DNA from: Millionella massiliensis
GTDB taxonomy: Bacteria; Bacteroidota; Bacteroidia; Bacteroidales; Rikenellaceae
Assembly: GCF_900104655.1 (NCBI RefSeq)
Contig: NZ_FNWD01000002.1
Location: 1,658,246-1,722,245, forward strand
Direction: 5' to 3'
Length of the DNA stretch: 64,000 nt
Shown: piece after piece, positions 61,045 through 64,000 of the stretch
Layout of the letters: each line of letters begins with the position of its first letter
Position numbering within the stretch: the first letter of the stretch is position 1
The notes under the pieces: generated by a model
What the model was told of the DNA's origin: nothing
Seen by the model: only the letters and a program-made list of their open reading frames with translations
Databases searched by the model: none
Translations under genes and position numbers: made by a program

Positions 61045-62343
61045 ATGAATAGAAAAGTTGTATTCACCATGGTTCTGGCAGGACTCCTCGGCTTCACACA
61101 AGCCCAAAACAACTCCACCTCTTCCGACCGCATCAAATCGACCACGGCCATCAGCCAGGTATTCGGAGACGGCAGAAAAGTAGCCACAATCGTTCTGGAA
61201 TACGACAGCCCCATCAGCAACCAAAGCCTCCAAAACGACAGCTACCAGGTCGACGGTAAGGAGATAACCCGCGTTTATGCCAATGCAGCTCCCGAAACCG
61301 CCGCAGAAGGCACCGACGGTCCCTACGTCATCATCGAAGTGAAAGCGGGCGTAGACCTCAACGCCCAACCCAAACAACCGACACCGGCCGACTTGGAAAA
61401 GAAACAGGAACGCGACCGAATGCAGGGAGGTCCCGGCCTGCGCGCCGGCTGGAGCACGGGCGGCGACGACGAATACCCCGGCAATGCCTCCGTCATGCAA
61501 CGGCGACCGATCCTCACCACCGACGGAACGACCATTCCGGCAAGCGACACCTGGATCGCAAACACCCAGGAAAAATGCCTCGTGGCGGACGACTTCGCAC
61601 AGCAGGAGTTCATCAGCCCGTACACGGGCCAGACACTCCCCTACAACATCTATCTGCCCGAAGACTACGACCCGACCAACTCCTACCCGCTGGTACTGTT
61701 CATTCATGATGCCGGCGTAGCCAGCGCACAAATCAAACAACCCCTTTACCAGGGTACCGGAGCCATTTCCTGGGCCACTCCGGAAGCCCAGGCCCGCCAC
61801 AAATGTATCGTCGTGGCCCCCGAATACCCCTTCGTGACCGTCGATGACAACTGGAACTACAGCCACCATCTGGATGCCACCATCGCCCTGATCAAAGATC
61901 TGGAGACCCGCTACTCGATCGACCCCAAACGCATCTACACCACCGGACAATCGATGGGTTGCATGTCCTCGATCGTCCTGATGCTCAAAGAGCCCGACCT
62001 TTTTGCAGGCGCACTTCTGGTGGCCGGCAAATGGAACCCGGCTCTGATGGGCCCCCTCGACAAACAAAACATCTGGATCATCTCCTGCGAAGGCGACAGC
62101 TCGTCCAACTCACTCCAGGGTGAGGCCGTCGCACTGTGGCGTAAACAGGGCAGCACCGTTACCGAAGCCACTTGGGACATGACACTCCCCACCGACCAAC
62201 TCTCCGCCGAAGCCGACAAAATGCGCGCCGAAGGCTCCCACCTGCTGTTCACCCACCTCACCGGCGGAAACCACCGCGCCACCTGGTTCGTAGCCTACGG
62301 CATCCCCGGCGTTCAGGATTGGCTCTTCGAACAACACCGATAA
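61045..62343 (+). CDS. Secreted EstA-like esterase (Ig-like plus alpha/beta hydrolase domains)
   Basis: A 432-residue exported serine esterase. The signal peptide is MNRKVVFTMVLAGLLGFTQAQ. Residues about 30-110 form an Ig-like domain (GRKVATIVLEYDSPISNQSL) like that of EstA-type esterases. A charged linker follows to about 130, then an alpha/beta hydrolase with LPYNIYLPEDYDP, oxyanion region FIHDAGV, nucleophile TGQSMG, acid probably in SCEGDSS and histidine in TGGNHRATW. The probable substrate class is short acyl esters or plant-polymer esters; this is inference. It is monocistronic with its own promoter and a hairpin terminator 40 bases downstream. Confidence 0.85.
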   Translation: MNRKVVFTMVLAGLLGFTQAQNNSTSSDRIKSTTAISQVFGDGRKVATIVLEYDSPISNQSLQNDSYQVDGKEITRVYANAAPETAAEGTDGPYVIIEVKAGVDLNAQPKQPTPADLEKKQERDRMQGGPGLRAGWSTGGDDEYPGNASVMQRRPILTTDGTTIPASDTWIANTQEKCLVADDFAQQEFISPYTGQTLPYNIYLPEDYDPTNSYPLVLFIHDAGVASAQIKQPLYQGTGAISWATPEAQARHKCIVVAPEYPFVTVDDNWNYSHHLDATIALIKDLETRYSIDPKRIYTTGQSMGCMSSIVLMLKEPDLFAGALLVAGKWNPALMGPLDKQNIWIISCEGDSSSNSLQGEAVALWRKQGSTVTEATWDMTLPTDQLSAEADKMRAEGSHLLFTHLTGGNHRATWFVAYGIPGVQDWLFEQHR

Positions 62344-62382: not shown

Positions 62383-62428
62383 GTCATGCCCCGCTACCCG
62401 CTGCCAAAGCGGGATCGCGGGGCATGAC
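62383..62428 (+). terminator. Terminator hairpin after the esterase gene
   Basis: A 12-bp outer stem (62383-62394 with 62417-62428) with an inner CCCGCT/AGCGGG stem, 40 bases past the stop. The T-tract is weak. Confidence 0.65.
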
Positions 62429-62505: not shown

Positions 62506-62513
62506 TAATTTTG
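62506..62513 (+). promoter_or_regulatory. -7 promoter element TAATTTTG ahead of the MFS-kinase fusion
   Basis: Exact TAnnTTTG match. Transcription would start near 62519 and run straight into the hairpin at 62524-62576. Confidence 0.6.
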
Positions 62514-62523
62514 CCCCGACAAC

Positions 62524-62584
62524 GAGTAGTGTCCAATCACGTAAATCCAGTTGATTTTCAATGATTGGCACTACTCTTTTTTTT
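62524..62584 (+). terminator. Attenuator-like intrinsic terminator 6 bases before a start codon
   Basis: A 15-bp stem with one bulged T (62524-62539 with 62562-62576) encloses a second small stem (62543-62547 with 62553-62557) and is followed by eight Ts (62577-62584). The ATG of the transporter gene is at 62591. It is either a regulated attenuator of that gene or an extra terminator for upstream transcription. Confidence 0.75.
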
Positions 62585-62590
62585 GCCCCC

Positions 62591-64000
62591 ATGAATCAAC
62601 TCGACACCCATCCCCAACTGTGGACCGCATCTTTCATAAAGATCTGCCTGGTCAATTTTTTCATCTTCGTCAATTTCCACGCCCTGCTGCCCACCTTTCC
62701 CTTCTTCGTCACCTATCTGGGCGGCGACGCGGTCGCCATCGGCATAGCAACGGCACTTTTCAGCCTTGCCTCCATCGTTTCGCGTCCGTTCGTCGGCTGG
62801 CTCACCGACACCAAAGGCCGCTGTTCGCTCCTCGTAATGGGACTGATCGGAATGACCCTCATCCCGATGGGCTACTTCGCATCGGCCGGTATCGCCCTGG
62901 CCGTGATCCTGCGCACCGCGCACGGAGTATTCCACGCCGCATCGAGCAATGCCGCCTCCACCTGGGTCACCGACATCATCCCCCACCGCCGGATGGGCGA
63001 AGGCCTGGGCATGTACGGACTCTCCATGGCACTCTCCACGGCCATCGCCCCCGCCCTCGGACTCGCCATCATGAACAACTGGGGTTTCCGCCCGATGTTC
63101 GCCATCACGGCCCTGGTCGCACTGATCGCCCTGCTGATCGGAATCAGCATCCGTCCCCGCAACTACAGCCTGTCGACCTCGCCCCTGCGGCTCCGCGACC
63201 TTTTCGAACCGATGTCGCTCCCGGCAGCCGTCACCCAATTCTTCTTCATGATGGCTTATGGGGTAGTCGAAGTTTATGTCGCCATCTACGCCGCACAGCA
63301 CCACCTGCCCGGAGGCGGTATCTACTTTATCTGTATCGCAGCCGCCACGGTACTGACCCGCATCCTGCTGGGACGCGCCGTCGACAAATACGGCGAAGCC
63401 CGGCTGGTCTATACCGGCAATGCCGCTATCATCGCCGGTATCCTCTGTCTAGTCCTGTTCCATAACCTGCCTGGCTATCTGCTCTCGGCCGCACTGCTCG
63501 GATACAGTTTCGGCGCAGTCCAGCCGTCGTTGCAAACCATGGCCATGCATGCCGTACCGCAGGAGAGACGCGGTGCCGCCAGTTCCACGTTTTTCGTCGC
63601 CTTCGACTTCGGAATCGCGCTGGGCGGATTCCTGGCCGGCGTACTGGTAAAAGTTTTCGGATACGATACGATGTTTCTGCTTATGATCGTTCCCTGCCTG
63701 CTCTCGTGGGGCTACTATTTACTCTTCGGACGACGCCACCCCTCCTCGTTCAACCCCCAAAATCGCAAACAATACGACGTCGGCAACAATCCGGCAGCCA
63801 CGGCCCACGCCGAGCACCTTCCGTTAATTATAACCATCTCGCGGGAATACGGCAGCGGCGGCCATCACATTGGCCGACTGCTGGCCCAACGCCTGGGGAT
63901 CCCCTTCTACGACCGGGAACTGATCGCACTCACAGCACGAGAAAGCGGATTGAGCGAATCGCTCGTACAGGAAAGCGACCAAATCGTCACCAGCCGATTG
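62591..64000 (+). CDS. MFS transporter fused to a cytidylate-kinase-like domain, 3' end cut by window
   Basis: One uninterrupted frame of 470 codons runs to the window end. Residues 1 to about 390 are a 12-helix major facilitator, with FVGWLTDTKGRCSLLVMG (motif A after helix 2) and TDIIPHRRMGEGLGMYG in the middle. A hydrophilic linker of about 20 residues (FNPQNRKQYDVGNN..) leads to LPLIITISREYGSGGHHIG at residue 410 onward. This is the P-loop start of the cytidylate-kinase-like family (Cytidylate_kin2), followed by LLAQRLGIPFYDRELIALTA. The rest of the kinase-like domain lies beyond the window. The transporter substrate and the kinase activity are unknown. The leader carries a terminator-like hairpin just before the ATG. 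Confidence 0.88.
   Translation, partial: MNQLDTHPQLWTASFIKICLVNFFIFVNFHALLPTFPFFVTYLGGDAVAIGIATALFSLASIVSRPFVGWLTDTKGRCSLLVMGLIGMTLIPMGYFASAGIALAVILRTAHGVFHAASSNAASTWVTDIIPHRRMGEGLGMYGLSMALSTAIAPALGLAIMNNWGFRPMFAITALVALIALLIGISIRPRNYSLSTSPLRLRDLFEPMSLPAAVTQFFFMMAYGVVEVYVAIYAAQHHLPGGGIYFICIAAATVLTRILLGRAVDKYGEARLVYTGNAAIIAGILCLVLFHNLPGYLLSAALLGYSFGAVQPSLQTMAMHAVPQERRGAASSTFFVAFDFGIALGGFLAGVLVKVFGYDTMFLLMIVPCLLSWGYYLLFGRRHPSSFNPQNRKQYDVGNNPAATAHAEHLPLIITISREYGSGGHHIGRLLAQRLGIPFYDRELIALTARESGLSESLVQESDQIVTSRL

Follow-up and report, generated by a model that had tools for sequence, protein, structure and literature searches.

A conserved 34-nucleotide core overlapping an intrinsic terminator is a candidate riboswitch upstream of transport genes in Bacteroidales

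The window analyzed here, a stretch of 64,000 nucleotides of the Millionella massiliensis genome, ends within a gene for an MFS transporter fused to a cytidylate-kinase-like domain (Pfam MFS_1 and Cytidylate_kin2), whose open reading frame runs from 62591 past the window end at 64000 and encodes 603 amino acids in the genome. Upstream lies an esterase gene (61045 to 62343; Pfam EstA_Ig_like and Esterase), a neighbor that is not necessarily a component of the switch proposed below; both genes and all leader features are on the forward strand. The leader is preceded by a Bacteroidota-type -7 box, TAATTTTG (62507 to 62514), ending 6 nt ahead of a conserved 34-nt core, CAACGAGTAGTGTCCAATCACGTAAATCCAGTTG (62520 to 62553), which was defined by covariance models and alignments A5 and A7 and is a candidate aptamer or antiterminator hairpin. 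Overlapping it is an intrinsic terminator hairpin of 15 bp (62524 to 62576), recognized by its fold and by stem covariation in relatives, with a 5' arm (62524 to 62531, a bulged T at 62532, and 62533 to 62539), a 22-nt loop (62540 to 62561) and a 3' arm (62562 to 62576). The T8 tract that follows (62577 to 62584), the predicted termination site, is separated by GCCCCC from the ATG at 62591. Folding of 62515 to 62590 returned exactly this hairpin at -24.2 kcal/mol, compared to -9.3 ± 2.4 kcal/mol for shuffles (z -6.1), none of 200 being as stable. Sequence and fold thus agree with the preliminary description, which had reported a -7 box and a strong hairpin with T8 six bases before the ATG. Since the terminator ends so close to the start codon, its hairpin, once formed, would probably also impede translation.

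Inspection of the sequence upstream of the window -7 box revealed no clear -33 element. The layout is not that of a leader-peptide attenuator: in the window leader there is no ATG before the terminator 5' arm, and about 5 to 20 nt lie between box and core. An origin of the hairpin from a repeat or IS end was rejected because it is single-copy in the genome. A second in-frame ATG (62561 to 62563) lies inside the terminator 3' side, and its use would add 10 residues to the MFS protein; homologous proteins start at the position of 62591, which speaks against such use. In the gap between esterase gene and leader, 62383 to 62428 form a near-perfect 12-base inverted repeat (GTCATGCCCCGC ... GCGGGGCATGAC) with no T run, which could be the esterase transcript end or a repeat element.

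Is this leader tied to the fusion gene? At the protein level, 84,980 species genomes were searched for relatives of the MFS part, yielding 18 loci with close matches (63 to 80% identity) from MAGs that, with few exceptions, carry Bacteroidales or one of its genera as their label. L033, with only 69 bases of upstream sequence, was left out of the leader count. The leader stands directly upstream of the related MFS gene in 16 of the 17 readable loci, the exception being L035; L034 and L048 share an identical leader sequence. The leader is not confined to the MFS-kinase fusion; kinase-less MFS genes carry it in L043, L045, L046, L047, and L050, where the protein ends at 385 to 427 amino acids. 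An esterase gene is a recurrent neighbor of the motif-bearing MFS gene, seen in the window, L034, L043, and L048. L042 (1107 to 1165) has kept the core and lost the terminator 3' arm, and its leader is a natural candidate for constitutive expression.

Beyond these MFS genes, the core recurs before other transport genes of gut-type Bacteroidales. It was found in 29 leaders of Bacteroidales genomes, a set sought within one phylum, drawn mostly from MAGs with some members nearly identical, and with most new copies coming from one large family. Pattern scans of 251 genomes gave nine core sites and no control matches, and further copies came from covariance model R2 and later scans. A Bacteroidota -7 box usually lies immediately ahead of the core; TAnnTTTG stands 12 to 18 nt upstream of the core in most copies other than the window's. 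Three xusABC-type xenosiderophore operons carry the leader, namely L182 and L183, with TonB receptor-DUF4374-PepSY_TM gene order, and L043, where a TonB receptor gene and a DUF4374 gene were seen. Four leaders precede Bcr/CflA exporters (L151, L199, L200, and L201), two precede TolC-HlyD-MFS pumps (L185 and L187, both in genome G604), and one precedes a PepSY-like lipoprotein gene (L150). The element therefore occupies the 5' leaders of several nonhomologous operons (MFS with or without kinase, Xus, Bcr/CflA, TolC-HlyD-MFS, and PepSY-like), as expected of a riboswitch. Of the remaining copies, L149 lies at a contig end, L184 is followed by a short ORF and looks decayed, and L186 is followed by a short ORF and then by genes that look BlaI/BlaR1-like by eye. 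In L186 (8516 to 8556, minus strand), core and terminator directly follow the apparent 3' end of a tRNA gene and have no -7 box of their own. L185 and L187 are paralogous efflux operons in which a terminator-less core lies about 230 to 280 nt upstream of the first gene.

Several candidate copies were discarded. Covariance model R1, based on the terminator stem, gave weak matches (L152 to L163) that lack the core and are ordinary terminators, and its minus-strand matches reflect the palindromic stem only. Order-wide pattern matches L164 to L167 and L170 to L172, which have no hairpin context, look like chance, as does L202.

Across the leaders, the core consensus is CAA[C/U][R][W]G..GUG-N(4-9)-CACGUAARUC[Y][R][R]UUG, with CAACR-WG..GUG-N4-9-CAC-GUAARUC-YR-GUUG as the main form. 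R1, built without the window copy, recovered the window leader at 61 bits (E 1.6e-13); R2, built with the window copy included, scored the core at 53.3 bits (E 4.2e-10) in its own genome. The conserved bases form a hairpin of two helices. In the window, the P1 5' strand CAACG (62520 to 62524) pairs with 62548 and 62550 to 62553 of the 3' strand C(A)GTTG (62548 to 62553), A62549 being bulged and the 3' strand lying within the terminator loop. The alignment of the core gives P1 as CAACR with YRGUUG and one bulged purine, and its changes are compensatory: at pair 4/31, 20 sequences carry C-G and 8 carry U-A, and at pair 5/29, 16 carry A-U and 11 carry G-C, with one exception. P2 joins GTG (62529 to 62531), which is shared with the terminator 5' arm, to CAC (62538 to 62540); both strands are invariant in 28 sequences, GTG even where there is no terminator. 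The 3' side of the internal loop, GTAAATC (62541 to 62547; GUAARUC in relatives), is nearly invariant in the same 28 sequences and is a candidate binding site. Within the core, P2 and the internal loop vary too little to show any covariation themselves. In the P1/P2 alignment, 99.2% of cells are paired and the covariation score is 0.205 compared to at most 0.101 in slid controls, a signal that comes mainly from two covarying P1 pairs among copies many of which are related. Unguided RNAalifold predicted the same P1/P2 hairpin, with pair 5/29 missing. An extension of P1 past the base after GTTG was rejected, as it pairs in only about half to three quarters of sequences.

In three copies, L183, L185, and L187, no terminator is obvious, the core is kept, and P2 is extended (GTGTC-TA-GACAC, GTGCG-GTTCT-CGCAC, and GTGCA-ACGTC-TGCAC, respectively). 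The longer helix supports P2 as a component of the conserved fold and sets it apart from the expression platform.

The terminator stem changes in sequence from locus to locus with its pairing preserved: double changes affect 6 of 14 pairs among seven ungapped members, and the covariation score is 0.58 compared to at most 0.15 in slid controls. Its 5' arm overlaps P2 and the P2 apical loop, and since nucleotides are shared, P1/P2 and the terminator cannot both form fully. The leader thus has a covarying conserved fold and an expression platform exclusive with it, both general features of riboswitches. The attenuator or small-riboswitch layout suggested in the preliminary description gains support from the conservation of the leader and from the covariation of both exclusive helices; for the same reasons, its proposed refutation, absence of the hairpin from orthologous loci, fails, the leader being present at every readable locus except L035. 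The nested stem it had noted, AAATC/GATTT, does exist in the window; it is not conserved in relatives and so does not provide the alternative pairing that matters. The important partner of the loop is CAACG (62520 to 62524) at the leader 5' end, a pairing absent from that description.

When elongation of the window leader was simulated, the lowest-energy fold was P1/P2 at lengths of 34 to 46 nt and the terminator from 50 nt on. Scored by itself, P1/P2 lies between about +1.5 and -2.4 kcal/mol depending on the copy, whereas complete leaders have minima of -16 to -50 kcal/mol where the terminator is intact. The antiterminator hairpin would thus fold first and yet be weak, so that some stabilizer is required; given this disparity, the default state should be OFF, and an effector that stabilizes P1/P2 should turn the gene ON. 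Under this model, RNA polymerase would start close to 62520 and make the 34-nt core first, which would fold into a weak hairpin of P1 (CAACR/YRGUUG) and P2 (GUG/CAC) around the conserved internal loop. Stabilized by ligand, the hairpin would hold the terminator 5' arm in P2 and the apical loop, block the terminator, and allow the transporter gene to be read. Without ligand, the 3' arm from 62562 onward would invade, complete the 15-bp terminator, and stop transcription in T8.

Comparison of the copies shows, at the level of sequence, a conserved leader with two covarying exclusive helices, a promoter-proximal position, and several unrelated transport operons downstream; ligand binding and the ON direction are what we infer from this arrangement. 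We favor, with moderate confidence, a compact transcription-terminating switch, most likely a riboswitch for a small molecule or metal complex. The loss of the leader in L035, the loss of the terminator 3' arm in L042, and the lack of a visible -33 element in the window count against a switch.

Does the element belong to a known family? Scans of four members with the Rfam 15 covariance models gave no match at or above the gathering threshold, and the best matches below it were microRNA or snoRNA models, which fit hairpins in general. As a recurring element outside all RNA families tested, the leader is probably an undescribed molecular switch and a candidate for a new transcription-terminating riboswitch. 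Literature searches on the core sequence and on siderophore or iron riboswitches, covering subscription papers in part and with preprints outside their scope, returned nothing relevant; the main text of two recent RNA-discovery papers does not mention these taxa or genes, and term searches of two xusABC papers found no riboswitch (PMC13142918, PMC10434189). The closest parallels are guanidine-IV (GGAM-1), with a pseudoknot coupled to its terminator (PMC7736828), and Gd4v, which also occurs in Bacteroidetes, is enriched in gut samples, and has no identified ligand (PMC7736828, PMC9788692). Like them, our element is a transcription-terminating leader whose terminator hairpin contains conserved bases that pair with a segment farther upstream, and it lies upstream of transporters (MATE and others in their case). 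They have a pair of hairpins connected through a pseudoknot, whereas in our element a single 34-nt hairpin has the terminator 5' arm as its apical loop; the associated genes also differ, and no guanidine family matched in Rfam. No conserved hairpin was seen upstream of CAAC, where the promoter box ends at a distance of 6 to 18 nt, the comparison with guanidine-IV and Gd4v models having been made via Rfam only.

A second parallel lies in protein-dependent control. The RAT site recognized by BglG/LicT, a short hairpin with an internal loop, shares nucleotides with the 5' arm of an intrinsic terminator, and our core resembles it in layout. An RNA-binding protein rather than a metabolite might therefore hold P1/P2, the more so as the antiterminator alone is weak and needs a stabilizer. 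We regard this as unlikely: no antiterminator protein gene adjoins the core copies in the neighborhoods seen and no RNA-binding regulator recurs beside them, a conserved internal loop before several unrelated transport operons is more typical of an aptamer, and the core persists without a visible terminator in L183, L185, and L187. Quite improbable, too, is a ligand-controlled OFF switch in which CAAC and the terminator loop form a pseudoknot alongside an intact inner terminator stem, the ligand strengthening or tuning termination, as when iron sufficiency shuts off uptake. The order CAAC-stem-GUUG-stem' would make an H-type pseudoknot, which is topologically possible, guanidine-IV offers a precedent (PMC7736828), and Xus-type genes of Bacteroides thetaiotaomicron are switched off by iron (PMC10434189). 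However, the outer terminator pairs and P1 would have to coexist, and the nested hairpin is favored by a GUG/CAC that is invariant even if unpaired in the terminator and by the longer P2 of terminator-less copies. There is very little room for the view that the hairpin is an ordinary terminator of the esterase transcript and plays no part in regulating the MFS gene: a strong hairpin and T8 do lie about 180 to 240 nt past the esterase stop codon, but loop and 5' flank are conserved at loci with different upstream genes, a -7 box stands between upstream gene and core in most copies, and plain terminators do not retain a 34-nt core. A nucleotide trigger matched to the kinase-like domain, as the preliminary description had speculated and as Cytidylate_kin2 in the downstream protein might suggest, is scarcely credible because the same leader precedes kinase-less MFS genes and unrelated transport operons.

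If the leader is a ligand-stabilized ON switch, what might it sense? XusABC, composed of DUF4374, TonB, and PepSY proteins, imports ferric enterobactin in B. thetaiotaomicron, and one xus operon includes an esterase (PMC13142918); iron depletion raises xus expression 490- to 680-fold (PMC10434189). Three leader copies precede the same gene content as the Bacteroides xusABC operons, unlike the window, where the gene encodes an MFS transporter; a DUF4374 search of the window's own genome gave no match, and control searches were equally silent. These Xus-type operons and the esterase neighbors suggest, as a guess, a siderophore- or iron-linked compound. Exporters are a larger class among leader-bearing genes than Xus-type operons, and this mixture of import and export blurs the ligand, which may be linked to xenosiderophore or iron traffic or to a compound exported by the pumps. 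A Bacteroidales riboswitch class that senses a siderophore-derived or iron-linked molecule and coordinates Xus import, esterase processing, and MFS/TolC export is a rather doubtful, speculative extension. A ferritin-like gene, an iron-related neighbor, is divergent from the motif-bearing Bcr/CflA exporter in L199 (7650 to 8047) and L201 (7429 to 7911).

An orphan riboswitch class of this kind would combine a very small core (about 34 nt) with a simple, testable two-state mechanism, in bacteria in which regulation by RNA has been little explored. Its targets include operons of the kind with which gut commensals steal iron-bound siderophores, and the identity of the ligand would reveal the trigger of this theft and the cargo of the MFS-kinase fusion.

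The nearest genomes of the Millionella massiliensis genus and family have no full fusion gene, so the window locus may have arrived by horizontal transfer; a plasmid search returned distant MFS matches only. One genome of the same family (G014, contig C1, 12000 to 12158) holds a 53-amino-acid stretch with a stop codon, 81% identical to the MFS part, which is apparently the remnant of a lost MFS copy.
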